Shown here: piece by piece, positions 490-30,236 of the stretch
Layout of the letters: each line of letters begins with the position of its first letter
Numbering within the stretch: the first letter of the stretch is position 1
Assembly: GCA_017649565.1 (NCBI GenBank)
Contig: JAGCGO010000019.1
Span: 62,001 to 126,000, forward strand
Length of the DNA stretch: 64,000 nucleotides
Direction: 5' to 3'
Origin: Fibrobacter sp.
GTDB lineage: Bacteria; Fibrobacterota; Fibrobacteria; Fibrobacterales; Fibrobacteraceae
Translations under genes and position numbers: made by a program
Notes under the pieces: generated by a model
Database searches by the model: none
What the model was told of the DNA's origin: nothing
Seen by the model: the letters and a program-made list of their open reading frames with translations, nothing else

Positions 490-1335
490 TTATTTTCCCA
501 TCCATTTATATATACACCTAAAGAAATCATCATCTCCATGCAGTTCTGCAGAACCTCTCGATTCTGGCAGTTCGCCTGAAGTAGAAAAGACCCGTGCAAG
601 CTCATCAATACCCGCTTGAGCACCACTGCAATCCTCATTGATCTCATAAGCGCAAATAGAACCGCAATATTCACCGAACATACATTCATCGAAATGCGCG
701 CTAATTTGTTCCAGCGCCTTGTCTGTTTCTCCGTCGTTGGCAATATCCAGATTCTCAAAATCATCTGCAAGATTTTCATAGCCAAACTCTTGCATCAATT
801 CTTCACGAGCCTGTTTTTTTGCCTCGGCAAACGATTTCCCGTTTTCAACGAGGTAAAGAGCACGATCGTATTCAAGATGCGTAAGGATATTGATGTTTAT
901 CTGGTCTCGATCTCGGATGTCGGACAGAGCCCTTAAGCTAATCTGGCATACCGTGTTCTCGCCCGTCGTTTCTCTTTTATAATAACCTGTTGCCTTCAGC
1001 CGGACAAACTGGCTTTCCAAATTGATGCCATCTATTTGGAAATCCCCCTTGTCAGTGCGAGTCGTGGCAAAAAATTCTTTGCCCGTGGGTTCAAGGCTAC
1101 CGTCCGCCGACGTTTCCGCGAGGACAATATTTGAGCCCTTTACAAAAGGACCTTTCTGCACCACGCCGGCAATCTGCTTGTTCGTAATTGCGACAACGGC
1201 AGCATCGCCCGAAGCACCGCCAGCGACATCTTTATCATCGGAATCGGAACAGGCAACCACAAAGCCCAGCAAAATGGCAAAAGCCAATGTAAAGGCCAAG
1301 CTTTCTCCTAATACTTTATACACATCCCTTTTCAT
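490..1335 (-). CDS. QKGPF-domain lipoprotein (cassette 1)
   Basis: A 281-residue lipoprotein. ATG at 1335 is chosen over an upstream TTG because AAGGAGGG lies 5 nt before it. Signal peptide ends in a lipobox near 'GFVVAC' (residue ~29), then an acidic linker. The QKGPF domain follows (~55-190) with 'GVVQKGPFVKGS', 'TGKEF', 'DKGDFQIDGINL', 'ATGYY', 'ININILTHLEYDR' and 'AKKQAREE'. The tail is Cys-rich with no FISUMP domain, so this is one of the shorter paralogues. Its start overlaps the end of the TIGR02147 gene by 20 nt, which suggests coupled translation. Function unknown; inferred cell-surface component controlled by the adjacent regulator. Confidence 0.88.
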   Translation of the reverse strand: MKRDVYKVLGESLAFTLAFAILLGFVVACSDSDDKDVAGGASGDAAVVAITNKQIAGVVQKGPFVKGSNIVLAETSADGSLEPTGKEFFATTRTDKGDFQIDGINLESQFVRLKATGYYKRETTGENTVCQISLRALSDIRDRDQININILTHLEYDRALYLVENGKSFAEAKKQAREELMQEFGYENLADDFENLDIANDGETDKALEQISAHFDECMFGEYCGSICAYEINEDCSGAQAGIDELARVFSTSGELPESRGSAELHGDDDFFRCIYKWMGK

Positions 1336-2188
1336 CTTTTCCCTCCTTATCAGATACACGTTTCTTCCCCAACTCTAAGCGTTCGCTCATCGGGAACAGC
1401 TGTACATTCAGGCGATACACCTGTTCCGTTTCGTCGTCTGCAGTAGCAATCGCTACGACACGACGGTAATAATCCTCTGTTTCCTTTTTTATCCGCTCGA
1501 AAGCGCGACGCGTAAGGCCAAGCGTATATCCCGACATGACGCGTTCGGAAATCGGCAAGCCAAGCGACTGGATGGCAAATTCCCCCATCTGGCGCTGCAG
1601 ATCGCGAGCTGCCAACGGCACGGCCTCCACAGGGGCCATTTTAATCGCCTTGTCCGTCTGATGGTAGTTCCCGTTCTTGTCCTTCTTCAAGAGTTTCGCC
1701 TTCACCAAGAAGTCAAGCGTCTCGGAAACTTCCGCTGCCGAAATCTTCGGCTTGCAGGCCTTCGCCATCTCGAGCGGTTTTGCTCCGGGCATGTGCGGGG
1801 CCAATTCGCGAATCACCGAATTTTTCCACGACTTGAAGTAAGCAAATTCTTCATTCCCGAGAATGCGTATCTTGTGGGCATTCGCCATCGCGCACCGTTC
1901 TTCGAATGCGGCTCGTTTTGCCACGTCGCTCTTAGCATGCGCATACGACACCATCAGGATAAAATAGTCGTATTCAAAGCCGACCAACCCCATAGCGCTC
2001 GCCACCGAGCCAGCCGACCCGACACTCAAATTCTTTTTCCCTTCGCAGACATACTTTAGGTAGACATCCGAAGAGAAGCCCGCTTTCTGGGCGAACGCAT
2101 GCCAGGAGAAAGCGGAGCAGCGCTTGCGTTCATCGTAGTAGTCCTGGATGAACTTGCGATAATCTGTATATTCAACGATTTCCTTCAT
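1316..2188 (-). CDS. TIGR02147-type regulator (cassette 1)
   Basis: A 290-residue protein of the Fibrobacter 'second paralogous' family TIGR02147, whose C-terminal part corresponds to DUF4423. It starts MKEIVEYTDYRKFIQDYY. Residues ~23-68 read as an XRE-like helix-turn-helix with second helix 'FSSDVYLKYV'. Residues ~145-185 look like a winged helix ('ISAAEVSETLDFLVKAKLLKK'). The end carries the family motif 'YRLNVQLFPMSE'. No membrane segment or signal is seen, so it is cytoplasmic. It heads cassette 1 and overlaps the lipoprotein start. The role as transcription regulator is inferred from the two DNA-binding-like segments and the operator-like repeats upstream (2218-2318). Confidence 0.88.
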   Translation of the reverse strand: MKEIVEYTDYRKFIQDYYDERKRCSAFSWHAFAQKAGFSSDVYLKYVCEGKKNLSVGSAGSVASAMGLVGFEYDYFILMVSYAHAKSDVAKRAAFEERCAMANAHKIRILGNEEFAYFKSWKNSVIRELAPHMPGAKPLEMAKACKPKISAAEVSETLDFLVKAKLLKKDKNGNYHQTDKAIKMAPVEAVPLAARDLQRQMGEFAIQSLGLPISERVMSGYTLGLTRRAFERIKKETEDYYRRVVAIATADDETEQVYRLNVQLFPMSERLELGKKRVSDKEGKDEKGCV

Positions 2189-2217: not shown

Positions 2218-2318
2218 TTAGAACATAAAATTTGCTTTTTTAGGCAAATTTTACCACTTTTTGGCAAATTACAAAAATTTCGCAAATCTAGAACATGACA
2301 AGCGTGTTCCAGGAACAT
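2218..2318 (-). promoter_or_regulatory. promoter and operator sites of cassette 1
   Basis: GAACAT occurs at 2221-2226, 2291-2296 and 2313-2318, with the inverted half-site GTGTTC at 2304-2309. On the minus strand an extended -10-like TGGTAAAAT lies at 2248-2256, between the first and second sites. The first site is 33 nt from the start codon. Spacings (+70, +83 inverted, +92 and -10 at +27) are identical in front of the cassette 3 regulator, where the half-site is GAATAC. Binding by the TIGR02147 protein is inferred. Confidence 0.6.
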
Positions 2319-2349
2319 GCCCACACCAGGTGACGCAAGAAAGAACGTC

Positions 2350-8181: not shown

Positions 8182-9750
8182 TTAATCCTTGACACAACGG
8201 ATAGAGAATCCGCTATCCTTGAACGACATAGACCTATTGTCCATTTGTCCAAACAAGTTTATGAAATAACAGATTCGCCCGTCATTCACATCAGCCAATT
8301 GATCGGTAAGAGCAAAGAAATCGGCACTGCGCGTATCCGCGTACGTAAAGGGATCTCCGCGGTACACTTCCCCGGCGGGGAAGGCAGAAAAACCGTAAGC
8401 GTCCGTACCGTAATCCCAGAGCCACCCCACCTTCGACATGAGATTGGCACTCCCGCCGGCCGTAGCAATCAGGACGTTCCATTCCGTCGTATCGGGCAAG
8501 TGCCAGCCATTCGGGCAAAGCCCCTGTTCCCGGGTAAACTCGCAATACTTCTCGAAACCGCAGGTCCGCGGTTTTTCCGCATCGTTTGCCAACTTGACCG
8601 AATCGATAGCCGCGGCCCACGTGTAGAAGCGTCCCGCGATTGCACAGTATTCGGGGTTGTCTTCGTAGCACCAGCTGCGTCCCAAAAGGCTTGGAGTGCT
8701 CACGCTGTCCGCATAGTTCAAGTTCTGCGCCATCCATACCTGTTCACCAATCGTTACGACCTTATAAACCTGGCCGTCGCGTTCATCGACAATGGAATCG
8801 TACACAATATCGGGATTCAAGTAGGCTTCCTTAGGCCGGCTCCAGTCTATGTCAAATTCGGTTCTCTCATCCTCTTCGCTTTCCTGCTTTTCTTCGAATT
8901 TCTCCATGTAATTTTCAAATTCCGGCAACTCGTCCACATATCCCCAGCTTTCGATGTTCTTGCGAATCGTATCGATCAGACCTTTTTCCTTGGCGGAAGC
9001 TGCCCAATCCGCAAGCTCGGCCTTTTCGCCGTCTCCCAGGGAACCCTTTTCCGCGAATGTCGAGCTGATCTTGTCCAGACGTTCGGCAACATCTGCAGCC
9101 TCTATAGTCTCGGCCGAATCATCCGGCACCTGCATCAGTACGCTCACAGCCAGGAGAGCCGCATTCCCGTCGCCCTGTTCAAAGATGTTCAAGTTTTCAA
9201 ATTCGCCAACTTCGGACACCACATCAAGCGCGGCAAGCACTTCTTCTTCCGCCTGCTTCTTTGCATCTGCAAAGTCCATGTTCTTTTTAGCGACAAGATT
9301 TCTTATGCGGTCGGATTCCAGATGCGTGAACGCATTGACATTTACCGTTTCACGCTCTTTCAAATTCGTCAGCACTCGCAGCGTCATCTTTTCCGAAGTC
9401 TTTTTACCGGAAACTTCGTTGAAGTAGTAACCCTTCGCCTCGATTTCGGCACACGGCGAAGAGAGCGTAACATCGCCAACGACATAGTCGCCCTTGTCGC
9501 TCTGGACCTCGCCCTCGAAAACCTCGTCAGACAATTCGAGTGTTTTACAGTCCATTCCGCGCACGGTCACGTGGGAGCCCTTGGCGAACGGGCCCTTCTG
9601 CAAGACACCAGCCACTTTCTTGTCCTGTACGGCATAGAGGCCCTCGCTTTCTTCGCAAGTCCCTGCGGTATCCTCTTTTTCGGAACAGGCACAAAGCAGA
9701 GCGAACCCTACAAGCGTCCATGCAAACAGAAATTTTCTAATCATCCTCAT
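8182..9750 (-). CDS. QKGPF lipoprotein with FISUMP domain (cassette 2)
   Basis: A 522-residue lipoprotein with lipobox 'FALLCAC' (residue ~22). The QKGPF domain (~45-175) has 'GVLQKGPFAKGS', 'DKGDY', 'AKGYYFNE' and 'VNVNAFTHLESDR'. It is followed by 'GDGNAALLAVSVLMQ' and 'KAELADWA' (~205-260). The C-terminus (~330-522) is a Fibrobacter major paralogous domain, TIGR02145: 'DGQVYKVVTIGEQVWMAQNLNY', 'GRFYTWAAA', 'CPNGWHLPDTTEWN' and the final 'GFSIRCVKD'. Its start overlaps the regulator gene by 14 nt and has AAGGA upstream; ATG at 9744 is an alternative. Probably an exported surface lipoprotein; the FISUMP domain has no established activity that I know of. Confidence 0.92.
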   Translation of the reverse strand: MRMIRKFLFAWTLVGFALLCACSEKEDTAGTCEESEGLYAVQDKKVAGVLQKGPFAKGSHVTVRGMDCKTLELSDEVFEGEVQSDKGDYVVGDVTLSSPCAEIEAKGYYFNEVSGKKTSEKMTLRVLTNLKERETVNVNAFTHLESDRIRNLVAKKNMDFADAKKQAEEEVLAALDVVSEVGEFENLNIFEQGDGNAALLAVSVLMQVPDDSAETIEAADVAERLDKISSTFAEKGSLGDGEKAELADWAASAKEKGLIDTIRKNIESWGYVDELPEFENYMEKFEEKQESEEDERTEFDIDWSRPKEAYLNPDIVYDSIVDERDGQVYKVVTIGEQVWMAQNLNYADSVSTPSLLGRSWCYEDNPEYCAIAGRFYTWAAAIDSVKLANDAEKPRTCGFEKYCEFTREQGLCPNGWHLPDTTEWNVLIATAGGSANLMSKVGWLWDYGTDAYGFSAFPAGEVYRGDPFTYADTRSADFFALTDQLADVNDGRICYFINLFGQMDNRSMSFKDSGFSIRCVKD

Positions 9751-10615
9751 TGCCTTCCTTGCACAGTGGCCCTGTGTCTTTTTTTAAATTATCCTTTTTC
9801 AAATTTTCCGTCAACGGAAAAAGCTGTATATTTAGCCTACAAATTTTATCCGGGTTTTTATCGGCCGAGACAAGCGACACTATACGCTTGCGGCACTCCG
9901 CCAATTCATCCAGGACCTTCGGGTAACTTTCGGTAGTCACGCCCATGGTCAACCCACTGAAATGCCGTTCCGATACCGGGAGTGTATCAAATGCGGCAAG
10001 CGCAAACTCGCCCATCTGCCGCAATAGCGAATGTACGGCCAATGTCACCACCTTCAACTGTCCTGTCGAAATGGAGCGGTTCGTCTGGCGATAATTATCA
10101 TTCGCATCCTTTTCCAAGAAACCGGCACTTAACAAAAAATGCAGACTCGCGCTCACGTCGGATGCCGATATAGGGAGCCGGCACGCCTTCGCCATTTCGT
10201 GCGGTTTCGCCCCGGGCATCGTCACCGCAAGTTCTCGCACCACCGAATGTTTCCAAGTCTCGAAAAAGGTGTACATGTCGCTTCCGAGGATCTTTACATT
10301 GCGTGCGGAGCTCAAAGCCTGCATTTCTTTGAAGCATTCCTTTTTCAACTGATCCGTCTTGGCATTCTCGTACCGGACCATCAAGACGAAATAATCGTAC
10401 TCAAAATCGACGAGTCCCATGGCGGCGGCCGTCTTTTTCGCCCCCTCTTCCACAAGTCGAGTCTTGCCGTCGCAAACCAGTTTCAAATACGAACCCGACG
10501 CGAACCCGGCAACTTTTGCAAACTCGCGCCACGTAAAAGCCGAGGTGCGCTTGCGTTCGCGGTAGTAATCCAATACGTACTCGCGATAGTCCTTGTATTC
10601 GACGACCGATTTCAT
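9737..10615 (-). CDS. TIGR02147-type regulator (cassette 2)
   Basis: A 292-residue TIGR02147 protein. ATG at 10615 (MKSVVEYKDYREYVLDYY) is chosen over a TTG at 10654 by alignment with the cassette 4 paralogue. The HTH-like segment has second helix 'FASGSYLKLVCDGKTR', identical to cassette 4. A winged-helix-like block follows near 145-190 ('ISASDVSASLHFLLSAGFLEK'), and the end has 'CRLNIQLFPLTENL'. It overlaps the FISUMP lipoprotein gene by 14 nt and heads a three-gene operon ending in the GLUG protein. Upstream lies a cluster of ATAAAACAA-type repeats. Predicted cytoplasmic autoregulator of this operon, perhaps also of the divergent lipoprotein gene at 10916 (inference). Confidence 0.88.
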   Translation of the reverse strand: MKSVVEYKDYREYVLDYYRERKRTSAFTWREFAKVAGFASGSYLKLVCDGKTRLVEEGAKKTAAAMGLVDFEYDYFVLMVRYENAKTDQLKKECFKEMQALSSARNVKILGSDMYTFFETWKHSVVRELAVTMPGAKPHEMAKACRLPISASDVSASLHFLLSAGFLEKDANDNYRQTNRSISTGQLKVVTLAVHSLLRQMGEFALAAFDTLPVSERHFSGLTMGVTTESYPKVLDELAECRKRIVSLVSADKNPDKICRLNIQLFPLTENLKKDNLKKDTGPLCKEGNEDD

Positions 10616-10660: not shown

Positions 10661-10788
10661 ATAAAAAACAAAAATTGCATATATCTCGCGATTTTTGAAT
10701 AATTTTAGGCGTTAATCCAAAAATTGGCATTTTTCATAAAACAAAAAAGGGGGTTATATAAAACAAAATCGCAATTATATAAAACAAA
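10661..10788. promoter_or_regulatory. divergent operator region, ATAAAACAA repeats
   Basis: Half-sites on the plus strand are at 10735-10745 (CATAAAACAAA), 10757-10767 and 10778-10788 (both TATAAAACAAA), spaced 22 and 21 bp. A weaker copy lies at 10661-10673 (C at 10669). A minus-strand -10-like TAAAAT lies at 10702-10707. The region separates the cassette 2 regulator (minus) from the lipoprotein gene at 10916 (plus), so it may serve both. The same 21-bp-spaced pair occurs at 61908-61939. Confidence 0.55.
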
Positions 10789-11629: not shown

Positions 11630-13600
11630 CTACTCGGCTTTAGCGTACTTGTCACAGTCACCATTATAGCCGCCCATAGACACAATATTGAACCGCAGGC
11701 TGTCTATGAGCGGCATCTCGAATGAAAGTCCTCTCACGCTCTTTACCCCCGTTTCACTGTCGAATTCGGACAAGTCCTCGCGCAAAACATATTCCGACAG
11801 GACAAATGACGACCACGGAATTCTCTCCACTCGAACCGTATCAGAGGCAGGCAAAACGGTTTTCACTGAATTGCCGGAATCAACATAGACAGAAATCGTT
11901 TGCGTGGAAGAATACGCGATACAGAGCCCGCCCAGTTCAGAGAAATCATAGGGTCGCGATCGAGGACTGTTCAAATAAACACCATAAGTTAAACCAGAAT
12001 CGCAGACGCCAGACTCACTAACGCAAGTCACCCGAGCGCAAACGCCCTTACACAATTCAACAACCTTCTTGGCTCTGTTTTCGTCATCTACGTCCATTTC
12101 AGACGGTAAGGACAAAGCGAAATCTTCATCAACATCTATATACCACTCAAAAGGTTCGGTTGAAAACGGGAAATACACCTCATCCGAATCCCTCGTTCCA
12201 AACCAAGTCCATCGGGAAAGATCTGCAACAAATTTCCCTTCCGTGCACGTATACTCCATTCCGGTATTTACACCAACTACAGTTCCCCCCTCGACACATT
12301 CTAGGCCCTGGACATCGACATCGGCAACGGTAACATCGCTCAACGTCCACTCTCCTTCCTTGCAAAGATAGCCATCTATAAATTTTTCGGGCATTGCCGA
12401 TGTACATGCACCATATTTCCATTCTATTTCTTTTATGTTGCGCCATGAACCACCATCATAAACAACAAATTGTCCTTGACCTGCATGACGAACTTCACCC
12501 TCTGTTCCATCCGTTAGGCAATATCGAAAACACGGGATAAAATTGGGTGTTGTAGCATCCGCGCCAAACCCAGAAGTGTCCGACAACAGTTCCCACCTTC
12601 CAGACAGGCAGATATACCGCACACTCATATCCCTATAATAATTTATGCTGAGCTCGTTACTATCCGCCGCAATTTCGCCTTCGCGCGATTCCGAACAAGT
12701 CCCGATCCCGTAGTTTTCATACCAGAAATTACGGACATACTTCGCGAAATCGGGAACCGAGCCGAACCCCCATCCATTGATATTTTCCGAAATTCTCAGC
12801 AGAGTCCCGTCAAAATCGGCTTTATTCGCCCAGTCGGCCATTTCCGTCTTCGTTTTCGCGTCATCCCACGAGCCCTTCGAGGCCAGCGCAATCCTGAAAT
12901 TGCCCATACGCTCGGTAAGTCCGGCAACAGATAGATTCCCCTGCATCAGGACGCTTATAGCAAGTAGGGCAGCATTACCGTCTCCCAACTCAAAAATGTT
13001 CAGGTCTTCCGAATTTTCGATATCGCCATCTATGCCGAACACCGACAAGATTTCGCGTTCGGCCTTGGCCTTGGCATCCGCGACGGATTCTCCCTTTTCG
13101 AGAACCAGGTGCATCACGCGTTCGTATTCCAGGTGTGTAAGCAAGTTGATATTCACCTTGTTCCTGTCGCTGAGATCCGTCAACGCGGTGAGAGTCACTG
13201 TACCCGAGGAATTTTCTCCGCTGATTTCGTTACGATAATAACCGGTCGCATCGAGCAAGGCATATTGCGAAGCAAGATTGATGCCTTTGATATCGAAATC
13301 ACCCTTGTCGCTCTTGATTTCTCCTCTAAAGTTCTTGCCCGTCTGATTCAGCGTGAGGCTATCCAGTTCATGCACCATCACCACGGAACCCGTGACAAAC
13401 GGACCCTTCTGCGAAACGCCCGCCACTTCCCAGTCCTTGACTGCATAGATACCGGCATCTTCCGAGGAACCCCCGTCGGTAATCTCAATATGGTCACTCG
13501 AATCCGAACTGGAGCATGCAACCATGAGCACCGTCAAAATACCCAAAACCAAAGTTGTAATCCAATGCACCATTGCCATTTTATGTACACTGTCTTTCAT
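11630..13600 (-). CDS. QKGPF lipoprotein with jelly-roll-like C-terminus (cassette 3)
   Basis: A 656-residue lipoprotein. ATG at 13600 has AAGGAGGA 5-12 nt upstream and lies one base after the regulator stop. Lipobox 'VLMVAC' near residue 29. QKGPF domain (~55-190): 'GVSQKGPFVTGS', 'SDKGDFDIKGINL', 'ATGYYRNE', 'VNINLLTHLEYER'. The second block follows: 'GDGNAALLAISVLMQ', 'TEMADWAN'. Short Cys-containing repeats then appear ('RYICLSGRWELL', 'YLCKEGEWTL', 'YTCTEGKFVADL'). The last ~190 residues ('SRWTWFGTRDSDEVYFPF ... SFEMPLIDSLRFNI') resemble a carbohydrate-binding-type beta-sandwich. That assignment is a guess from the pattern. No FISUMP domain. Confidence 0.88.
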   Translation of the reverse strand: MKDSVHKMAMVHWITTLVLGILTVLMVACSSSDSSDHIEITDGGSSEDAGIYAVKDWEVAGVSQKGPFVTGSVVMVHELDSLTLNQTGKNFRGEIKSDKGDFDIKGINLASQYALLDATGYYRNEISGENSSGTVTLTALTDLSDRNKVNINLLTHLEYERVMHLVLEKGESVADAKAKAEREILSVFGIDGDIENSEDLNIFELGDGNAALLAISVLMQGNLSVAGLTERMGNFRIALASKGSWDDAKTKTEMADWANKADFDGTLLRISENINGWGFGSVPDFAKYVRNFWYENYGIGTCSESREGEIAADSNELSINYYRDMSVRYICLSGRWELLSDTSGFGADATTPNFIPCFRYCLTDGTEGEVRHAGQGQFVVYDGGSWRNIKEIEWKYGACTSAMPEKFIDGYLCKEGEWTLSDVTVADVDVQGLECVEGGTVVGVNTGMEYTCTEGKFVADLSRWTWFGTRDSDEVYFPFSTEPFEWYIDVDEDFALSLPSEMDVDDENRAKKVVELCKGVCARVTCVSESGVCDSGLTYGVYLNSPRSRPYDFSELGGLCIAYSSTQTISVYVDSGNSVKTVLPASDTVRVERIPWSSFVLSEYVLREDLSEFDSETGVKSVRGLSFEMPLIDSLRFNIVSMGGYNGDCDKYAKAE

Positions 13601-13601
13601 T

Positions 13602-14447
13602 TTATTCCTCCTTAACGGATCCAAATTCATTTTTTAAATTCTCGCTCATTGGGAACAATTGCAAGTTCAATCGGTATACCCGCTCCGCATCATCAATTTC
13701 TGTCGCAATCGCCACAACGCGGCGGCGACATTCTGCCAATTCCTTTCTAATGCGTTCATAAGCATCGCGCGTAAGCCCCAAAATAAGGCCTGACATATCA
13801 CGTTCCGAAAGAGGCAAGTCAACAGCCTTTACCGCAAGCTCGCCCATCTGCCGTTGCATTTCGCGAGCCGCTACAGGAACCGCATCCACGGAACCCATCG
13901 ACACGGACTTGTCCGTCTGATGATAGTTACCGTTCTTATCCCTCTTCAAGAGGTTCATCTTCACCAAAAAATCGAGCGTTTCGGAAACTTCCGCCGCAGT
14001 AATGTGCTGTTTGCAGGCGCGAGCCATCTCAAGCGGCTTCGCGCCGGGCATGTGCGGAGCCAATTCGCGCAGCAGCGGGTTCTTCCACGACTTGAAATAG
14101 TCAAATTCCTCGCTCCCGAGCACGTGCACCTTGTGTGCATGCGCCAAGGCACAGCGTTCTTCGAATGCGGCTCGTCTCGCCTTATCGCTCTTGGCGTGCG
14201 CATACGAGACCATCAACACAAAGTAAGTATTCTCGAAACCCGCAAGCCCCATGGCATTCGCTACAGAGCCCGCAACGTTGACACTCAAGTTCTTTTTCCC
14301 CTCGCAGACATATTTCAGATAAACTGGCGACGAGAACCCGGCATCATGCGCAAACTGCCGCCAGGTAAAAGCCGAGCAGCGCTTGCGTTCATCGTAGTAG
14401 TCCTGAATGAACTTGCGGTAGTCCGTATATTCGATGATGTCCTTCAT
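13602..14447 (-). CDS. TIGR02147-type regulator (cassette 3)
   Basis: A 281-residue TIGR02147 protein, a close paralogue of the cassette 1 regulator. ATG at 14447 (MKDIIEYTDYRKFIQDYY) is preferred to a GTG two codons upstream. The HTH-like segment reads 'FSSPVYLKYVCEGKKN' where cassette 1 has 'FSSDVYLKYV': one residue differs in the putative recognition helix. Winged-helix-like block 'ITAAEVSETLDFLVKMNLLKR' near 145-180; end motif 'YRLNLQLFPMSENL'. The stop is one base before the lipoprotein ATG, and that gene's ribosome site lies inside the regulator's last codons, so translation is likely coupled. Probable operators lie at 14478-14577. Confidence 0.88.
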   Translation of the reverse strand: MKDIIEYTDYRKFIQDYYDERKRCSAFTWRQFAHDAGFSSPVYLKYVCEGKKNLSVNVAGSVANAMGLAGFENTYFVLMVSYAHAKSDKARRAAFEERCALAHAHKVHVLGSEEFDYFKSWKNPLLRELAPHMPGAKPLEMARACKQHITAAEVSETLDFLVKMNLLKRDKNGNYHQTDKSVSMGSVDAVPVAAREMQRQMGELAVKAVDLPLSERDMSGLILGLTRDAYERIRKELAECRRRVVAIATEIDDAERVYRLNLQLFPMSENLKNEFGSVKEE

Positions 14448-14477
14448 ACGCACAAATATATATCCTCAAGACAAAAA

Positions 14478-14577
14478 TAGAATACAAATTTCGCTTTTTC
14501 GCACAGATTTTACACATTCGCGTATTATACAAAAAATTTCAGCAATTCAGAATACAAAACCGGTATTCCAAGAATAC
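14478..14577 (-). promoter_or_regulatory. promoter and operator sites of cassette 3
   Basis: GAATAC occurs at 14480-14485, 14550-14555 and 14572-14577, with the exact inverted half-site GTATTC at 14563-14568. A minus-strand TGTAAAAT (-10-like) covers 14507-14514. Offsets (70, 83 inverted, 92 and -10 at 27) and the 33-nt distance to the start codon match the cassette 1 region base for base, while the half-site differs (GAACAT there). Confidence 0.62.
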
Positions 14578-14578
14578 A

Positions 14579-14601
14579 GAAAAGGCCCCGCAAGCGGGGC
14601 C
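14579..14601 (-). terminator. terminator of cassette 4
   Basis: Perfect stem GGCCCCG (14584-14590) with CGGGGCC (14595-14601) and a CAAG loop. On the minus strand a short T run follows. It lies 25 nt downstream of the lipoprotein stop at 14626. Confidence 0.78.
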
Positions 14602-14625
14602 TGAATGAGAGAGATACAAATTATC

Positions 14626-16485
14626 TTAGTTTTTCACGCAGCGGACTCGAGCACTTTCTCTCGGTTCTTCAAGCGCAGAGTCAAATCCCAAAAAGATTCT
14701 AAAAGTTTTGTTATCAAATTCCAAGTTGCCCAAATAACCACTACGATTAAATCCACCCCAAAAACCTTCATTATAAGCAAACGGAGCATTATCATAATAC
14801 ATCTTCAATGTATCTACTTGCGCCTCGATATTTACGTGGAATGATTGATGTGTGTACGTGTGATAATAGGCCATACCGTCTTCCATCGGCAAAAGATTGA
14901 AATCAAGCCTGTCGTAGTGCACACCAGCACCATCCCTCCAGTTTTCATTAAGCAAATTAAGAACACCACCGGCATAAGCGACCAAGGCATTCCAGTCCTT
15001 AACACTAGAGATATGCCAACCATCCGGACAGATTCCTTGATGCACCACGTCAATCACACCATCTTCAACAGGCTCTGTCATGTATTTTGGGTCTATCTGC
15101 ATGGCAGCCGTCCAACTATAAATTCCTTTTTGTTTAACCTTTAACATCATACGGGTTTCACTTACTTCGTAGTTGAGGTCTTCCGCCATCCATTCATATC
15201 TTTTCCCGCCAATCTCAAAACTTACCGTTTTATACACATTACCATCTCGCGGATCTATCATAGTGCCCGATTCATGGTCAATCTTCATTTTGAGAGAATC
15301 TACGTATCCTGTCCTCTTTACTTCCCAACTAGAACCATTGCAAAGAAGATAACCGGACTGCAGAACTATCATTTGATTGGAGGAATTATCGTAAGCAATA
15401 ATAGGTTTATGGAATTCCCTGGACTCGCCCCAAAGATCTTCAGTACAAAGTTCAACTCCCATATAGTTCAAAAATAAACGCTTACTAAATTCGTATTTCT
15501 TTTTCATAACCATAAGTTCCTCGTACGAGCCCGGATCTTTGCGATCTTTTTTTCTCATGTCGGATTCATCTATATCTTCCATATGACTGTACTCACCAGT
15601 AATGCGATAAGCCTGAGTCGCAAGGTCTTGCATAATGGAATCGCTGAGAACACCGTCATCCGCAAAGTCATTGGCAAATGCATCAATATAAGCCTGTAAC
15701 TTGGAACAATCTATATTTTCCAAGAGTATCTCAGGCCCCCATTCATCGCTTGTGCCATCCCAAAATTCCCACGAGCTACTTTCATCCAGCAGAAGACTGA
15801 TGTTGAAAAGTGTTCTATCGGCATCAGAAGTATTAAATATGTTCAAATCTTCAGAAGAACTCACATCGACATCCACCCCGAACGCATTCATAACTTCTGT
15901 GGAAGCCTGTCTTTTCGCTTCAACAAAGTTTTTGCCGGATTTGATCAAGTTCAACACACGTTTGTATTCAAAATGAGTCAAGAGATTGATGTTTACTGTT
16001 TCGCGCTTTCGCAGGTCAGAGACGGCGTCCAGACGCATGGGGCATTCAGAGAAACGTTTTTCTTCTTCAGATCTATTATCATCATCGAAATACACTTCCC
16101 CATCGTGTATATAATAGCCCTCTGCAGAAAGTAGTACGTACTGGCTTACTAGATCAAGACTATCAAAATTGAAATCACCCTTATCATTAATGGTCACCGT
16201 AGTGTATTCTCTGCCGGTGGGTTCAAGGTTGCCCTCTGCCGACGTTTCACGAAGAACCACTTCGGAACCCTTTACGAGCGGGCCTTTCTGCGCCGCGCCC
16301 GAAATCTTTTTGTTCGCAATCGCGACGATGCCTTCGGCCTCTTCGCTGGTTCCGGCAGACCCGCCGATCTCGGAACAACCACTGAACATCGCTCCCATCG
16401 CAAGAGCCAATGCAATTCCAGTTTTCGCCATCATCTTTTTTTCCGGATGGATGGCATTTCTTGTCTCATCATAATTCTCAATCAT
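14626..16485 (-). CDS. QKGPF lipoprotein with FISUMP domain (cassette 4)
   Basis: A 619-residue lipoprotein. ATG at 16485 has AAGGAGA upstream and overlaps the regulator stop as ATGA. Lipobox 'AMFSGC' (residue ~37) follows an unusually long n-region; MM at residues 18-19 is the alternative start but lacks a ribosome site. QKGPF domain (~55-210): 'GAAQKGPLVKGS' (Leu replaces the usual Phe), 'NDKGDFNFDSLDL', 'AEGYYI', 'VNINLLTHFEYKR'. The C-terminus (~400-619) is a divergent FISUMP/TIGR02145 domain: 'DPRDGNVYKTVSF', 'WMAEDLNYE', 'GIYSWTAAM', 'CPDGWHISSVKDWNALV', ending 'ARVRCVKN'. Surface lipoprotein of unknown function. Confidence 0.9.
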   Translation of the reverse strand: MIENYDETRNAIHPEKKMMAKTGIALALAMGAMFSGCSEIGGSAGTSEEAEGIVAIANKKISGAAQKGPLVKGSEVVLRETSAEGNLEPTGREYTTVTINDKGDFNFDSLDLVSQYVLLSAEGYYIHDGEVYFDDDNRSEEEKRFSECPMRLDAVSDLRKRETVNINLLTHFEYKRVLNLIKSGKNFVEAKRQASTEVMNAFGVDVDVSSSEDLNIFNTSDADRTLFNISLLLDESSSWEFWDGTSDEWGPEILLENIDCSKLQAYIDAFANDFADDGVLSDSIMQDLATQAYRITGEYSHMEDIDESDMRKKDRKDPGSYEELMVMKKKYEFSKRLFLNYMGVELCTEDLWGESREFHKPIIAYDNSSNQMIVLQSGYLLCNGSSWEVKRTGYVDSLKMKIDHESGTMIDPRDGNVYKTVSFEIGGKRYEWMAEDLNYEVSETRMMLKVKQKGIYSWTAAMQIDPKYMTEPVEDGVIDVVHQGICPDGWHISSVKDWNALVAYAGGVLNLLNENWRDGAGVHYDRLDFNLLPMEDGMAYYHTYTHQSFHVNIEAQVDTLKMYYDNAPFAYNEGFWGGFNRSGYLGNLEFDNKTFRIFLGFDSALEEPRESARVRCVKN

Positions 16486-17330
16486 CTTTTCTCTCCTTTC
16501 CCATTATTAAATTTCAAGTTCTCGGTAAGTGGGAAAAGCTGCATATTCAAACGGCAAACTTTCTCCACGTCTTTGTCAGCAGAAACAATCGACACAATTC
16601 GTTTGCGGCACTCCGTGAGTTCTTCGACGACCTTTTCGTAGCTTGCGGCGGTCATTCCCATAAAGATGCCGCTAAAATGGCGTTCCGAAATCGGCAACTT
16701 GTCAAAAGCCTCGAGCGCAAACTCGCCCATCTGGCGTAACAGCGAATGCACCGCCACCGAAACGGCCTTTAAGCGCCCCGTAGTCAGCGAACGGTTCGTC
16801 TGATGGTAGGCGCCCTTTACATCCATCGTCAGGAAACCTGAATTCACAAGGAACTTGAGGCTGCTGCTGACATCGGCGGCCGAAATCGGGAGACGGCAAA
16901 CCTTCGCAATCTCGTGCGGTTTCGCCCCCGGCATTGCCACAGCCAATTCGCGGACAACGGAGTGCTTCCACGTCTCGTAAAAAGTGTACAGTTCGCTCCC
17001 GAGGATCTTCACATTGTGCGCCGAGCTCAGCGCCTCCATTTCCTCGAAGCACTTTTTCTTTTCACGATCCGTCTTCGCACTTTCGTAGCGGACCATCAAA
17101 ACAAAGTAGTCGTACTCAAAGCCCAACAACCCCATGGCAACAGCGGTTTTCTTCGCACCTTCTTCACGAAGGCGCGTCTTGCCATCACAAACAAGCTTCA
17201 AGTACGACCCCGACGCGAATCCGGCAATCTTTGCAAACTCGCGCCATGTAAACGCCGAAGTGCGTTTGCGCTCGCGGTAGTAGTCAAGTACGTACTCGCG
17301 ATAATCTTTATATTCAATAACCGATTTCAT
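16482..17330 (-). CDS. TIGR02147-type regulator (cassette 4)
   Basis: A 282-residue TIGR02147 protein, close paralogue of the cassette 2 regulator (MKSVIEYKDYREYVLDYYRERKR). A preceding in-frame ATG at 17333 would add one Met. The putative recognition segment 'FASGSYLKLVCDGKTR' is identical to cassette 2. Winged-helix-like 'ISAADVSSSLKFLVNSGFL' near 145-185; end motif 'CRLNMQLFPLTENL'. The stop overlaps the lipoprotein start by 4 nt (ATGA). ATAAAACAAG-type repeats lie at 17380-17478, and a palindrome array starts at 17529, further upstream. Confidence 0.88.
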   Translation of the reverse strand: MKSVIEYKDYREYVLDYYRERKRTSAFTWREFAKIAGFASGSYLKLVCDGKTRLREEGAKKTAVAMGLLGFEYDYFVLMVRYESAKTDREKKKCFEEMEALSSAHNVKILGSELYTFYETWKHSVVRELAVAMPGAKPHEIAKVCRLPISAADVSSSLKFLVNSGFLTMDVKGAYHQTNRSLTTGRLKAVSVAVHSLLRQMGEFALEAFDKLPISERHFSGIFMGMTAASYEKVVEELTECRKRIVSIVSADKDVEKVCRLNMQLFPLTENLKFNNGKGEKR

Positions 17331-17379
17331 CATGACAGTAAATTAGGTTATTCTCATCCAAGGTGCAACGAAATTCAAA

Positions 17380-17478
17380 AAACAAATATTGCGTTTTTAG
17401 CCAAATTTAGGCATTTTATAAAATGAAATAAAAAAATTTTAAATCTATAAAACAAGCGCCATAATTCCATAGAACAAG
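17380..17478 (-). promoter_or_regulatory. operator-like repeats of cassette 4
   Basis: Half-sites AAACAA at 17380-17385 and 17450-17455 (within TATAAAACAAG, 17446-17456), and GAACAA at 17472-17477 (within CATAGAACAAG). Offsets of 70 and 22 bp match cassettes 1 and 3. A minus-strand TAAATT preceded by GCC (17404-17409) is a possible -10; cassette 2 has a similar GCCTAAAAT. Confidence 0.5.
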
Positions 17479-17528: not shown

Positions 17529-17845
17529 GGGGCGTATAAAAACAGAGAAACGCTCCTATTTATACGCCCCAGCGGCCAAATTACACACAAACTAACACAT
17601 TCCTGGCGACACGGAAAAGGCCCCGACACGTATAAAACAGCAAACAACGCCCCGTTTATACGCCCCTCAGCACAATCACAGCATCCCTCCAGTACCATTT
17701 CCCTATTGTGGGGCGTATAAATCTCTGTAAATTCGCTCATTTATACGCCCCTTACACAAAATAGAGCGTAAAAAAGCAATATAATCTCCCAAAAATGAAA
17801 ATAGGGGCGTATAAAAACAAGGAAAAGCTCCTATTTATACGCCCC
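17529..17845. repeat. array of four 42-bp palindromic units
   Basis: Arms GGGGCGTATAAA and TTTATACGCCCC occur as pairs at 17529-17540/17559-17570, 17710-17721/17740-17751 and 17804-17815/17834-17845. A degenerate left arm at 17625-17636 pairs with an exact right arm at 17655-17666. In every unit the two arms start exactly 30 bp apart. Units begin 96, 85 and 94 bp apart. The loops of units 1 and 4 are nearly the same (AACAxxGAAAxGCTCCTA-like). The array fills the 535-bp spacer between the GLUG/InlB gene and cassette 4. The last unit may end transcription of the former. Role unknown. Confidence 0.85.
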
Positions 17846-17869
17846 GGCCGTTATTTGACGGATGTTTGG

Positions 17870-24083: not shown

Positions 24084-25547
24084 TTATTCAATGATGGTCA
24101 TTTTACCTTCATCGAGGCCCTTGACCGCATAGAACACCTTGGTTCCGTCCGGCTTCAGGACCACCGCGATACCGGCAAGATAGTTCAGCCAGTGGTCTTC
24201 CGGAGACTCATAGTACCTCAAGTCGATTCGTCCTTCGGAAACATACGACACAAGAGGTATGAGCATAATGTCGTGCGTAATGAACACGCCTATCGTCTTT
24301 CCGGAATTTTCCAGCGCCGGGATAATATGATCTTCCAGCAATTCGGAGCTTCTGCTCTTCAAATCGTAGAACGCATCGTCGTAGCCGCCTTCGAAAGCCC
24401 ATCTCGTCGTGACACCCCTGCCATCGTCATTTTCGTTATAGAGGGCCATGTAGTAGGACATCTGGTTCCTTACGAACCAGCCCTCGTTCAATACTTTTAT
24501 AGTATCGCCAAGCGTATCGGCGTCACCACGGCCTATGGCAATATTATTGTACGTCTGGTGAGTACGGATATATTCCGAACCTGCATAATAGATTTCCGGG
24601 CCACCCACCAACTTAGCCCCGAGCTGTTGGGACTGCAGCCTTCCGTTATCCGTCAGCGGAGTTTCCTTGGTAATCGTGTTCACGCGTTCGGCATGGCGCA
24701 ACATCACCACCAACTTTTCACCTTCGGCGAGCCCCGCAAAGACCTGTTCGACCGGGGTAAAGTCACTGACCGCAGATTGAGTGACATACTGGCTGTTAAT
24801 GACCCCCATCTTCTCCGCTTCAGTAGCTAAGCGCCAAAGGAGCGTTCCGTTGTCGCAATAGAAATAACGATCTTCGCCATTAATGGACGCCACCTTGAGT
24901 TCGCCCTTAGTCGAGTCGTTACACGCGCCCAAGTAATCCTCCGGTCCATGGACAACCACGCTATCCACGACATGGATACTGTCAATCACGTTAACGCTAT
25001 CCGTAATACGCAGGCTATCGATGATATTCAAGCTGTCCACGATATAGATACTATCAATGACGTTCAAGCGAGTCGTCACGCGAAGGCTATCAATATAGCG
25101 CACGACATCCTTATAGCGGACGCTATCGATAATGTTCAAGCTATCGACAAAACGCACGCTATCTTTAATACGCAAACTGTCAAGGTAGCGCGTCACTTCC
25201 CTATACTGGATGCTATCAACAATATGTAAGCTATCGATAATACGCACGCTATCCGTAATGCGCAAACTATCCAGATAACGAGTGACATCCCTATAACGGA
25301 TGCTATCAATAATATTCAAGCTATCCTTAACACGCACGCTATCTTTAATACGCAAACTATCGATATAACGAATGCTGTCCATCAGATTCACACTATCCCG
25401 AATCACGACCGAATCGGAACCAGCAGAACCAGAAGCAACCGCATCCGCGTCTTCCAGGTTTACGGAAACAGTAGCACTGTCATCGCAGGCAGCAAAGAAA
25501 AAGACAAGCAGAGCGCTTGTCAGCAATTTTAGGGCGTTTGATTTCAT
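24084..25547 (-). CDS. hexapeptide-stalk lipoprotein with histidine phosphatase domain
   Basis: A 487-residue lipoprotein with lipobox 'FFFAAC' (residue ~21). Residues ~48-200 are about 25 tandem hexapeptides of the form DS[VIL]x[VI]x (for example DSLRIK, DSLNII, DSIRYR). A short domain follows ('YLGACNDSTKGEL ... RYFYCDNGTLLWRLA'), then a histidine phosphatase domain (~270-487). The catalytic signature 'MLRHAER' is followed by 'YIRTHQT' and the second catalytic His in 'FITHDIMLIPLV', so the domain looks active. Substrate unknown; anchored outside the cytoplasm. A conserved upstream element (25589-25606) is shared with the paralogue at 27065. It is the last of the five paralogues and seems to have its own promoter. 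Confidence 0.88.
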   Translation of the reverse strand: MKSNALKLLTSALLVFFFAACDDSATVSVNLEDADAVASGSAGSDSVVIRDSVNLMDSIRYIDSLRIKDSVRVKDSLNIIDSIRYRDVTRYLDSLRITDSVRIIDSLHIVDSIQYREVTRYLDSLRIKDSVRFVDSLNIIDSVRYKDVVRYIDSLRVTTRLNVIDSIYIVDSLNIIDSLRITDSVNVIDSIHVVDSVVVHGPEDYLGACNDSTKGELKVASINGEDRYFYCDNGTLLWRLATEAEKMGVINSQYVTQSAVSDFTPVEQVFAGLAEGEKLVVMLRHAERVNTITKETPLTDNGRLQSQQLGAKLVGGPEIYYAGSEYIRTHQTYNNIAIGRGDADTLGDTIKVLNEGWFVRNQMSYYMALYNENDDGRGVTTRWAFEGGYDDAFYDLKSRSSELLEDHIIPALENSGKTIGVFITHDIMLIPLVSYVSEGRIDLRYYESPEDHWLNYLAGIAVVLKPDGTKVFYAVKGLDEGKMTIIE

Positions 25548-25588
25548 TTTGTGCAGACTCCTTTTTTACCAACACCATTTGTCAGTAA

Positions 25589-25606
25589 GTTTAAGTTGTA
25601 CGCAAA
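25589..25606 (-). promoter_or_regulatory. conserved upstream element, copy 1
   Basis: On the minus strand TTTGCGTACAACTTAAAC, 42 nt before the start of the 24084-25547 gene. It matches 17 of 18 positions with 28825-28842, 39 nt before the 27065-28786 paralogue. Probably a promoter or regulator site. I see no clear -10. Confidence 0.5.
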
Positions 25607-25806
25607 ATATATTCTAGTCAAAGCACAAAGTCAATCTTTATCTGCAAAGCAGTTCTACAAATAAGGTAAAATTTTTATAAACAATTTATTTGTAATACAC
25701 CATCTGTAATTTGTACAGATTATTTAATTTACAAATAAAAAAAAATGCGCCGACCCGGAGGCCAAGCGCAATACAAAAGGGCGATCCGACAAGCGGATTC
25801 AAAGAT

Positions 25807-25956
25807 TTAGGACTTAGGATTAACTTCGGCGCCGGGGGCGTAGCCGAGTTCGTCGCAATAATCTCCATCAGTGCATTCATTACTGCCACTCAGCAACGGA
25901 GCCTGATGCTTGAGATCCAACACTTCCATTTCCGGAGCTTTGTATTCTTTTTTCAT
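25807..25956 (-). CDS. 49-residue peptide, possibly exported or modified
   Basis: A short ORF from ATG 25956 to TAA 25807, with GGAGGGAAAC directly upstream and 15 nt after the stop of the secreted-protein gene 25972-26940, so the two are probably co-transcribed. The start is MKKEYKAPEMEVLDLKHQAP followed by LLSGS, then an acidic Cys-containing tail (NECTDGDYC, DELGYAPGAEV). From memory, short Bacteroidota and Fibrobacter peptides share an 'MKK-x-Y-x-x-P-E-x-E-V' leader and a small-residue break near residue 22; this was not checked. It could be a secreted peptide or a RiPP-type precursor, but no modification enzyme is nearby. Confidence 0.68.
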   Translation of the reverse strand: MKKEYKAPEMEVLDLKHQAPLLSGSNECTDGDYCDELGYAPGAEVNPKS

Positions 25957-25971
25957 GTTTCCCTCCAAAAA

Positions 25972-26940
25972 TTAACGAACCATTTTCTGTTTTCCGACGT
26001 ACACGCCGTGGTTTGCAGGCTTCCCGTTAATCGCACGGCCGTTGAGGTCGAAGCGGCGGCTGTCCATCTGGATTTCGCCCGTGACCGGGTTTAGCTTGCC
26101 AATAGACAAAGTGCTGTCGCTGTCGATGAGGCGGACCTCGATTGTTTCGGGCAACTCAAAATCTTTTACGTTATCTGAAGATTTCTTGGAAAGAGCACTG
26201 CCATCACCTTGATATTCCAGATAGGCGCGCAGAGGCGGCAGATAGGCACCACTACCAATTTTGACGAACTGGCCTCCAGAAGCTCCATTCGCATCCTTTG
26301 CTGCATAGCCGTAAACCTTTTCGATACCGTCATCTCCAGTATTCCATTTTTTGTATTTGTAAGTTCCCCTTAGGAAGAAATCATTTTTTCCCGTTTCATT
26401 GTTATACAGTGACGAAAAAAGAGGCATACCTTCAGGCAACACGTTGAAATGATCGTCTTTCGGAGTAAACTGTATTTCTGTAAGTGCACCGCACCCTTCC
26501 TTTTCTGTATCAGTAACCATTATATATGGCGTATTTGCATCAATATCGTCCTTGGCATTGTAGCCTATAGCTTCCCATGTTCCATTGGATTTTCCAAAAT
26601 TGTATATTTGATACACTTCGACACAATCATTATCCAACTTTGCCCCAAAAGGAAGTACAATCGTTGAATTTGCCTTGAGTGGAGTATCTCGCAACACAAC
26701 AATCTCCATCCCATTTGAGCCACTATTGGCACAGTCGGCAAAAGGCTGTCCGAAATCAACCTCCGCAGACTCATCAGCGAAAGACTCCAGATAGAGCGTG
26801 TTGTTGGAACTGTAGTAGGCACCGCCCTTAAACGAGCAGGTAGGAGTTCCACTCGGGCGCTCCGCCAATACGGCGGTAGCAGAAAACGCGAGTGAAGCAA
26901 TAAAAACGGCTTTAGCCGTGGTTAGATTGTTGATTTTCAT
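25972..26940 (-). CDS. secreted protein of unknown function with C-terminal sorting-like motif
   Basis: A 322-residue exported protein. ATG at 26940 has AGAAGGGTG upstream; the longer frame to 27039 adds an unlikely N-terminus. Signal peptide 'MKINNLTTAKAVFIASLAFSATAVLA'. Body features include 'GGAYYSSNNTLYLESFADESAEVDFG', 'VLRDTPLKANSTIVLPFGA' and 'YLPPLRAYLEYQG'. The end 'RRFDLNGRAINGKPANHGVYVGKQKMVR' resembles the last strands of type IX-type sorting domains. It sits between two phosphatase lipoproteins and is followed by the 49-residue peptide gene. I recognise no enzyme motif. Confidence 0.85.
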   Translation of the reverse strand: MKINNLTTAKAVFIASLAFSATAVLAERPSGTPTCSFKGGAYYSSNNTLYLESFADESAEVDFGQPFADCANSGSNGMEIVVLRDTPLKANSTIVLPFGAKLDNDCVEVYQIYNFGKSNGTWEAIGYNAKDDIDANTPYIMVTDTEKEGCGALTEIQFTPKDDHFNVLPEGMPLFSSLYNNETGKNDFFLRGTYKYKKWNTGDDGIEKVYGYAAKDANGASGGQFVKIGSGAYLPPLRAYLEYQGDGSALSKKSSDNVKDFELPETIEVRLIDSDSTLSIGKLNPVTGEIQMDSRRFDLNGRAINGKPANHGVYVGKQKMVR

Positions 26941-27064
26941 TTTTTCACCCTTCTTGTTACCCTTGAAAATATAAAATCTGCTTACAATTTTCAATAGGAA
27001 AATAAAAAACAGGGCCCGTTTAGGCCCCATTTTCTTCATTTATTCGAATTTCAGCCAAGAAAAA

Positions 27065-28786
27065 TTACATCGTACCCGATTCAAGACCCTTCACCGCATA
27101 AAACACCTTGGTTCCGTCCGGCTTGATGACAACGGCAAAACCCGCAAGATAGTTTACCCAGCGATTTTCGGAAGAAACGTAATACTTCAAGTCGATATTC
27201 CCATCGGAAACATACGCAATCAACGGCAAGAGCATCACATCGTGCGAGACGAACACCCCGATGGACTTTCCGGATTTTTCCAATGCCGGAATGAGATGTT
27301 CCTCTATCAATTCCGAACTCCTTTCGGCCAAGTCGTAGAATGCATTGGTGTATCCGCCCTCGTACGCCCACTTGGAGAGGAGGTTGAAGGCATCCCCCCC
27401 CACCTGCCACGATGCAGAAATGTAGGCACTCTGGTTCTTTACGAACCAATTGTCATTCAACACAGACAGGGTATCGGCCAACGTATCGGCATCGCCATGA
27501 CCCTTGGCAATGTTATTGCACGTCTGGTGGGTACGAATGAATTGCGATCCTGCATAGTAGATAGCCGGGCTGCCGATCATTTTCGCACCAAGTTCCTGAG
27601 ACTGGAGTTTTCCATTTTCCGTAAGCGGGCCCGTCCTGGAATAATCGGAACCACGTTCGGCATGGCGAACCATCAACACCACTTTCTCGCCTTCAGCGAG
27701 CCCCGCAACGACATCTTCGAACGGCGTGAAATCCGTAACCGCAGACTGCGTCACAAAATAGCTGTTCAGGTCATGCCCGGCAGCAATACGCCAGAAGAGA
27801 GTACCCTTGTCGCAAACGTAATAGCGATTTTCCCCATTGATGGTGACGGTCTTTATCTCGCCGGCATTGGCTCTGCCGCACATGCCCAAATATTCCTCCG
27901 GGCCATGAAGCACGATGCTGTCCACGAGACGGGTACTGTCCTTATAGAGGATACTATCAATCAAATTCAAGCTATCCTTAATGCTGATACTGTCGATGAT
28001 GTTCAGGCTATCCTTGATGGAGATGCTGTCGATAACATGGATGCTATCGATAATATGCAGGCTGTCCTTGATGGCGATACTGTCAATAATGTGCAGGCTG
28101 TCCCTGATGGCGATACTATCGACAATGTGCAGGCTGTCCCTGATGGCGATACTATCGACAATGTGCAGGCTGTCAATAACGTGGATACTGTCAATAACGT
28201 TGATGCGGTCAATAACATGAATACTATCAATGACGTTGATGCTATCAATAACGTGGACACTATCGACGACATGGATACTATCGATGATGTGCAAGCTGTC
28301 GGTAATGCGCAAGCTGTCGAGGAAGCGCGTGACGTCCTTATAGCGGATGCTGTCAACAATATTCACGCTGTCCGTGATGCGCAAGCTGTCAACAAAGCGG
28401 ACAACATCATTGTAACGGACGCTGTCGACGACATTCAAGCTGTCCTTAACACGCAAGCTATCAACATAGCGGACAACATCCTTGTAACGAACGCTGTCGA
28501 TGATGTTCAGGCTGTCCCGAATACGCAAGCTATCCGTAATGCGCAAACTGTCAAGGAAACGCGTCACCTTCTCGTAGCGGATGCTATCGATGATATTCAC
28601 GCTGTCGACAATACGAACGCTATCTACGTAATGCACACAGTCTATCCAGTTTATGCTATCACGGACAACAACCGAATCGGCAGCAGATTCGCCTTCATTT
28701 TCCAGATTAATCGCCGTGTCCTCGCACGCAGCAAATACAAAAACAAGGGAAGCGCTCAACAGGGCTTTAAAGATTTTTGATTTCAT
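27065..28786 (-). CDS. hexapeptide-stalk lipoprotein with histidine phosphatase domain, longest stalk
   Basis: A 573-residue lipoprotein with lipobox 'VFVFAAC' (residue ~21). ATG at 28786 is chosen by analogy with the 25547 paralogue; an ATG three codons upstream is possible. Residues ~40-290 form about 42 tandem hexapeptides (DSLRIT, DSIHVI, DSIAIR, DSLHII). The distal half is highly uniform at DNA level (18-bp units, 27960-28260). Then 'YLGMCGRANAGEIK ... RYYVCDKGTLFWRIA' and a histidine phosphatase domain (~350-573) with 'LMVRHAERG', 'FIRTHQT' and 'VFVSHDVMLLPLI', all catalytic His present. Predicted surface phosphatase held away from the membrane by a rod-like stalk (inference). Confidence 0.88.
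   Translation of the reverse strand: MKSKIFKALLSASLVFVFAACEDTAINLENEGESAADSVVVRDSINWIDCVHYVDSVRIVDSVNIIDSIRYEKVTRFLDSLRITDSLRIRDSLNIIDSVRYKDVVRYVDSLRVKDSLNVVDSVRYNDVVRFVDSLRITDSVNIVDSIRYKDVTRFLDSLRITDSLHIIDSIHVVDSVHVIDSINVIDSIHVIDRINVIDSIHVIDSLHIVDSIAIRDSLHIVDSIAIRDSLHIIDSIAIKDSLHIIDSIHVIDSISIKDSLNIIDSISIKDSLNLIDSILYKDSTRLVDSIVLHGPEEYLGMCGRANAGEIKTVTINGENRYYVCDKGTLFWRIAAGHDLNSYFVTQSAVTDFTPFEDVVAGLAEGEKVVLMVRHAERGSDYSRTGPLTENGKLQSQELGAKMIGSPAIYYAGSQFIRTHQTCNNIAKGHGDADTLADTLSVLNDNWFVKNQSAYISASWQVGGDAFNLLSKWAYEGGYTNAFYDLAERSSELIEEHLIPALEKSGKSIGVFVSHDVMLLPLIAYVSDGNIDLKYYVSSENRWVNYLAGFAVVIKPDGTKVFYAVKGLESGTM
27960..28260 (-). repeat. 18-bp tandem repeats encoding the stalk
   Basis: Near-identical 18-bp units encode hexapeptides such as DSIAIR-DSLHIV and DSIHVI. 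Adjacent 36-bp pairs are almost identical (28066-28160), which could allow repeat number to change by recombination or slippage. Confidence 0.75.
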
Positions 28787-28824
28787 TTGGCACATCTTCG
28801 TCGCCACCGCGACTAGGTAATTTT

Positions 28825-28842
28825 GTTTAAGTTGTGCGCAAA
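28825..28842 (-). promoter_or_regulatory. conserved upstream element, copy 2
   Basis: On the minus strand TTTGCGCACAACTTAAAC, 39 nt before the start codon of the 27065-28786 gene. It is the counterpart of 25589-25606, with one mismatch. Confidence 0.5.
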
Positions 28843-28907
28843 TTTACTTTTTTCTTATAATTATTTCAAGGCCGTTTTTCTGTTTAGTTTAATTTACTTT
28901 GTATTAA

Positions 28908-30215: not shown

Positions 30216-30236
30216 TTTTTGTTTTATGTTGTTCTG

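Follow-up and report, generated by a model that had tools for sequence, protein, structure and literature searches.

A proposed residue-to-base code between a multicopy family of Fibrobacter regulators and the operator words of their own promoters

Four cassettes, each made up of a regulator gene of the NCBIfam TIGR02147/Pfam DUF4423 family and a lipoprotein gene, lie on the minus strand of a 64,000-nucleotide stretch of DNA from Fibrobacter sp. (assembly GCA_017649565.1, contig JAGCGO010000019.1, positions 62,001 to 126,000; this whole stretch is called the window below). Each cassette very probably forms a self-contained feedback unit, in which the N-terminal helix-turn-helix (HTH) of the regulator would read half-sites in its own promoter and HTH residues would set the letters of those half-sites. 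The broader picture, towards which we lean, is that one lineage-specific HTH scaffold has radiated inside each Fibrobacter genome to give some 20-30 autoregulatory loops, which use about ten operator words and a nearly residue-by-base code (residues 30/34 with p2, 41 with p4, 46 with p5, 43 with p6 and 52 with p7). Each loop would act over a curved spacer of 70 bp and would control a single surface lipoprotein. Residues are numbered as in cassette 3 and p1-p8 are the letters of the half-site, an 8-mer.

Results and discussion

A preliminary description of the four cassettes had proposed that the operator word follows the putative recognition helix, and its underlying comparisons were correct. 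The segment FASGSYLKLVCDGKTR is identical in the regulators of cassettes 2 and 4, and both promoters carry TTGTTTTAT/ATAAAACAA words (10736-10787 and 17447-17477, with one TTGTTCTAT in the latter). Within the same segment cassettes 1 and 3 differ by a single residue (FSSDVYLKYV vs FSSPVYLKYV), and their words are CATGTTCT (AGAACATG) and TGTATTCT (AGAATACA) respectively. Two details needed correction. The interval 13602-17330, to which the proposal was attached, contains only cassettes 3 and 4, and the one residue is not the whole HTH difference between cassettes 1 and 3, which also differ at 28, 30, 31, 34 and 35 (SWHAFAQK vs TWRQFAHD).

All four regulators are members of TIGR02147 ('Fsuc_second') by score, with full-length scores of 277-331 bits against a curated cut-off of 50, and in each cassette the lipoprotein gene overlaps the 3′ end of the regulator gene. 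The cassette 3 regulator (13602..14447; 320 bits, with a Pfam DUF4423 match) begins at M1 at 14447, the start in the ORF list being an earlier GTG at 14453, and is followed by its lipoprotein gene at 11630..13630. The corresponding pairs, their regulators recognised by the same profile, are 1316..2188 and 490..1359 in cassette 1, 9737..10615 and 8182..9750 in cassette 2, and 16482..17333 and 14626..16485 in cassette 4, where the overlap is ATGA; two of the four lipoproteins (cassettes 2 and 4) contain FISUMP domains. Across the family the median distance from regulator to next open reading frame (ORF) is -4 bp, among regulators with sufficient downstream sequence, and 107 of the 143 next ORFs 3′ of regulators have a lipobox pattern. 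As judged from this arrangement, regulator and lipoprotein gene are translationally coupled in one operon.

The promoters of 228 regulators with upstream DNA were examined; 115 more were added later as a hold-out. A motif-free spectrum of repeated 6-mers in 215 upstream regions showed a peak at 70 bp (weighted 47.6 vs 2.35 in shuffles) and another at 21 bp (37.9 vs 3.2), the excess spacings being 70, 21 and 92 bp for direct repeats and 9, 11 and 13 bp for inverted ones. Further peaks at 7, 14, 28 and 42 are the product of a single tandem array in one locus, L147, whose 7-bp unit, CCAATGA, is repeated about 200-140 bp 5′ of the regulator, upstream of the distal operator. A scan using the repeat geometry gave a median score of 18 vs 6.5 in shuffles, with 81% of sequences above the shuffle 95th percentile and 57% above the maximum of 645 shuffles. 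A search of individual promoters for 8-mers de novo, with no geometry imposed, performed poorly, with 20% exceeding the null 95th percentile.

The half-sites so located have mostly TGT at p1-p3 and mostly T at p8, and share one layout: a distal group of two or three half-sites, placed either 21 bp from one another or inverted, then a spacer of 61-66 bp, then a single proximal half-site, 70-73 bp downstream, that coincides with or adjoins the -35 position. In cassette 3, the geometry scan places the proximal half-site D, TGTATTCT, at 14479..14486 on the minus strand, with the same word at the distal half-sites C (14549..14556) and A (14571..14578) and the inverted half-site B, GGTATTCC, between them on the plus strand (14562..14569). 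Cassette 1 is organised in the same way: D (TATGTTCT, 2220..2227), C (CATGTTCT, 2290..2297) and A (CATGTTCC, 2312..2319) on the minus strand and B (CGTGTTCC, 2303..2310) on the plus strand. The half-sites of the other two are all on the minus strand. Cassette 2 has D (TGTTTTTT, 10663..10670) and TGTTTTAT three times, at C (10736..10743), A (10758..10765) and an extra upstream half-site (10779..10786), and cassette 4 has D (TGTTTTTT, 17377..17384), C (TGTTTTAT, 17447..17454) and A (TGTTCTAT, 17469..17476).

The dyad of cassette 3, TGTATTCNNNGAATAC, occurs once in the 3.45 Mb genome, at its own promoter, and that of cassette 1 occurs at its own promoter, at one paralogue and at one further place. 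This pattern suggests local autoregulation. The further place, with the cassette-1-type dyad CATGTTCGGAGAACA, is at G000:C61:2724-2738, apart from any listed regulator, and may be an extra target.

The spacers between C and D lie at 2228-2289, 10671-10735, 14487-14548 (62 bp, minus strand) and 17385-17446 in cassettes 1 to 4. Across the family the A-tracts of these AT-rich spacers show a 10.0-bp periodicity (power 10.3 vs 2.3 in shuffles), and their register is alike in several clades. As the A-tracts recur every 10 bp, the spacer is expected to be curved.

The same layout bears on the sign of regulation. In the clade of the four cassettes the proximal site ends 16-18 bp, mostly 18, 5′ of a TATATT-like -10 element, which sits about 7 bp 5′ of the ATG, a distance that suggests a near-leaderless start, and there is no TTGAC. 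The proximal half-site could thus stand in for the missing -35 element, in the manner of a class II activator, and the regulator would drive its own operon by positive feedback. In other clades the proximal site lies, in most cases, 29-31 bp upstream of the -10, near -45, often with TTGAC between the two; a word just 5′ of the -35 element would also suit an activator. On the other hand, promoters with a good -35 and a good -10 should need no such help, and two distinct distances to the -10 would both have to function. Activation is a serious possibility, though not the one we prefer; autorepression of the operon is the most likely outcome and is favoured just slightly over it.

The relation between word and protein was examined by a co-change test on 242 pairs, in which p4, p6 and p7 were left free, after a run on an earlier, smaller set. 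The tree was built from residues 80 onward only, so that the HTH was excluded, and for every operator position the parsimony changes were set against those in 261 protein columns; because branches are treated as exchangeable, the P values serve as a ranking and not as exact probabilities. For p4, residue 41 came out far ahead of all other columns (17 joint changes, P = 2e-15). Residue 34 was best for p2 (P = 4e-10), followed by 35, 30, 33 and 28, residue 46 for p5 (P = 6e-5), residues 52 and 43 for p6 (P = 4e-11 and 3e-10) and residue 52 for p7 (P = 2e-8). No co-changing column was found in this set for p1, p3 or p8. The best columns for p2, p4, p5, p6 and p7 all fall within HTH residues 34-52, so the earlier suggestion of a specificity code pointing to the N-terminal HTH holds with a tree from which the HTH is absent.

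The correlation between helix and word over all paralogues, proposed earlier as a check, was likewise found: the letters follow HTH residues in the 228 pairs and in the hold-out. In tables of 174 registered pairs, used for residue 30, p1p2 and p5, Arg30 is paired with TG at p1p2 in 134/139, His30 with CA or TA in 24/24 and Gln30 with A at p2 in 9/10, while Val46 goes with G at p5 in 9/10, other residues at 46 having mostly T. Among Arg30 regulators, 41 of 45 with Pro41 have A at p4 of the proximal site, compared with none of 55 that have Ser, Gly or Cys41. Within the Arg30/Tyr46 group alone the comparison of Pro41 with Ala41 was not significant (11/12 vs 22/35, P = 0.08). Residue 52 tracks p7, with Lys giving C in 96/96, Phe G in 26/26 and Ser or Ala A in 45/46. 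In the KYVSEG clade residue 43 tracks p6 (Tyr T 25/25, Phe C 10/10, His G 10/11), an assignment made post hoc. Mutual information within clades placed residues 28/30 clearly on top for p1/p2 and gave no sharp answer for p4-p8.

A simpler account is that the Asp/Pro difference at residue 41 chooses between CATGTTCT and TGTATTCT by itself, as the preliminary description had implied. Its leading position for p4, and the fact that several clades combine Pro41 with an A at p4, speak for it, and this part of the claim stands. The choice of CA or TG at p1p2, in contrast, tracks residue 30, and regulators with His30 or Gln30 together with Ala41 retain CATGTTCT; L074_-10796, with His30 and Ala41, is one of them. 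Identical SSAVF segments with different words do occur, the situation named beforehand as refuting the idea: with Gln30 the word is CATGTYCY and with Arg30 it is TGTRTTCT, and only the addition of residue 30 mends the correlation. Natural swaps are also found; in one example, regulators with C-terminal domains 93% identical carry TWRDFARD with TGTATTCC and SWHAFAQK with CATGTTCT. Residue 41 acting alone is very unlikely.

A model of the regulator generated with AlphaFold2 (AF2; pLDDT 87) contains a five-helix HTH, with helices at 10-24, 29-35, 43-48, 56-65 and 71-84. It overlays on the 434 repressor-DNA structure (2or1) over 62 residues at 2.2 Å, on SinR-DNA over 62 residues at 2.3 Å and on Stl (6h49) over 56 residues at 1.8 Å, with Z about 6. 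Given this moderate Z, residues 7-85 are best described as a predicted 434-type HTH. The co-change test and the helices 29-35 and 43-48 place the specificity region at residues 28-54, which in cassette 3 is 14286..14366 (minus strand), with the codons of R30 at 14358-14360, P41 at 14325-14327, Y46 at 14310-14312 and K52 at 14292-14294; in cassette 1 H30 is at 2099-2101 and D41 at 2066-2068. A sequence search of the PDB found no relative (best E 0.13).

In the same model the C-terminal DUF4423 domain, a possible winged helix, resembles those of MarR, ArsR, Fur and BlaI: about 58-75 residues can be matched at 2.0-3.5 Å, the best Z values are 6-8 for alignments of about 60-75 residues, and the lowest Foldseek E value is 0.007. 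From this likeness it follows that the regulators may hold two DNA-binding folds, the C-terminal half being encoded at 13602-14147 in cassette 3 and at the equivalent positions in the others. The domain might then be imagined to read the words itself, leaving the HTH another role. No C-terminal column is best for p2, p4, p5, p6 or p7, which makes this highly improbable.

Least credible of all is that nothing is recognised and that regulator and word, being adjacent, are simply inherited together, so that word classes partly match clades: at equal C-terminal identity (bins of 60-80%) p2 is shared in 1-9% of pairs that differ at residue 30 vs 96-100% of those with the same residue, and co-changes cluster in HTH columns, far above C-terminal ones, despite the HTH-free tree.

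Prediction gave a further test of the code. Rules fixed beforehand from the 174-pair tables were tried on regulators fetched later, 26 of which shared the HTH type and gave a detected word; the p4 rule accepts A or G for Ala41. The prediction was right for p2 in 24/26, for p4 in 25/26 and for p7 in 24/26, compared with permuted means of 19.2, 17.9 and 15.8. Four of the hold-out regulators (L227, L228, L233 and L239) come from other genera of the family, and many others are orthologous to training members. In the KYVSEG clade the first hold-out, made with the geometry scan, was a failure (p4 10/18); the scan seems to put words of this clade in the wrong register. Clear words were recovered post hoc by anchoring on the -35 element, with a pattern limited to T at p3 and p5 and to A or G at p4 and p7.

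In the proposed mechanism, the two-domain regulator and its lipoprotein, expressed from one coupled operon, would form the feedback unit. The HTH would bind the copies of the half-site in the operon's own promoter, where the inverted half-sites are consistent with a putative dimer. Residues 28-35 in helix 2 would set p2, residue 41, just before helix 3, p4, residues 43 and 46 in helix 3 p6 and p5, and residue 52, in the loop after helix 3, p7. As the AT-rich spacer with its 10-bp A-tracts joins the two sets of sites, the distal and proximal complexes probably meet across the bend; the evidence for such looping consists of the 70-73 bp spacing and the phased A-tracts. The C-terminal domain may serve in sensing or contact. 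If the code holds, the substitution D41P in cassette 1 would shift p4 only, giving CATATTCT.

Several points weigh against this mechanism and the code behind it. The promoter layout suits an activator almost equally well. The geometry used to find the words was learned from the same promoters, and their registration relies on p1-p3 and p8. The p5 rule was uninformative in the hold-out (permuted mean equal to the observed) because nearly all letters are T. Asp41 and His30 are linked, Asp41 occurring only with His30 in the training set, so natural sequences do not separate the effect of Asp41 itself. The fold matches, at Z 6-8, are at a level flagged by the tool as a possible common arrangement, and the regulators show no sequence match to Pfam HTH families, DUF4423 being the sole Pfam match at E values up to 0.1; they are therefore classed as working like the lambda/434-type (XRE) HTH and not as members by sequence. 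AT-rich control promoters and intergenic regions of these genomes are also phased (median 9.5 vs 12.6, P = 8e-6), so the phasing of the spacer is a stronger form of a common genome feature. Finally, TGTATCAT is common to several paralogues within one genome, and the loops are therefore not all orthogonal or insulated.

The regulators resemble the repressors of phages 434, lambda, P22 and 933W in their predicted five-helix HTH, several operator half-sites and putative self-regulation, and the lambda/434 type in that the residues tied to specificity lie where helix 3 begins (41, 43 and 46 by co-change). With VCEGK aligned to LENGK, residues 41, 42 and 46 presumably correspond to Q28, Q29 and Q33 of the 434 repressor. 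Residue 52, which lies outside helix 3 and also appears to set a base, recalls E51 of the 933W repressor, which lies outside the recognition helix and has been proposed in a model to set one base (PMC3317979). Unlike the phage proteins, the regulators have a possible winged helix in place of the phage repressor C-terminal domain, a 70 bp spacing architecture and no Pfam HTH match, and form a chromosomal multicopy family coupled to lipoproteins. Correlated protein and operator columns have been used to infer contacts in the MerR, GntR and IclR families through comparative-genomics motifs and regulons (PMC5045206, PMC4494728, PMC8222616). The same kind of correlation is used here, but with sites from the regulators' own promoters, within a single lineage-specific family of paralogues, and with hold-out prediction.

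The genome contains 36 TIGR02147/DUF4423 paralogues, and the family was found in 80/80 genomes of the genus searched, at 5 to about 45 copies per genome. Two loci on contig C36 of the same assembly, L002 and L005, nearly duplicate cassettes 4 and 1, words included, and represent either a second cluster or a strain mixture (assembly contamination is 6.1%). Between cassette 4 and the next gene, at 17529-17848, are four tandem imperfect palindromes, GGGGCGTATAAA...TTTATACGCCCC, of 42-45 nt, spaced 85-96 bp apart, which form a repeat family. A second paralogous lipoprotein-like cluster lies at 24084-34796, where several adjacent ORFs encode extended repeats of the KDSL/NIIDSI type close to the N-terminus, together with a (V/L)RHAER motif resembling histidine phosphatases.

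Conclusions

No paper naming TIGR02147 was found, DUF4423 gave one match, a Bdellovibrio protein in a table, and the passages found of the F. succinogenes genome paper do not mention the family. No function, DNA site or code for TIGR02147/DUF4423 is described in the literature searched, and the reading given here would be the first hypothesis on what the family does, members of which occur in all Fibrobacter genomes searched. To our knowledge, HTH recognition is usually said to follow no simple code. The family offers hundreds of natural, matched protein/operator pairs built on the same scaffold, in which changes have arisen independently again and again, and these make it possible to read a code, to predict from it and to test it. 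The regulators and their words may also provide a set of parts for bacterial switches, and they make it testable how multiplying paralogues avoid or tolerate crosstalk.

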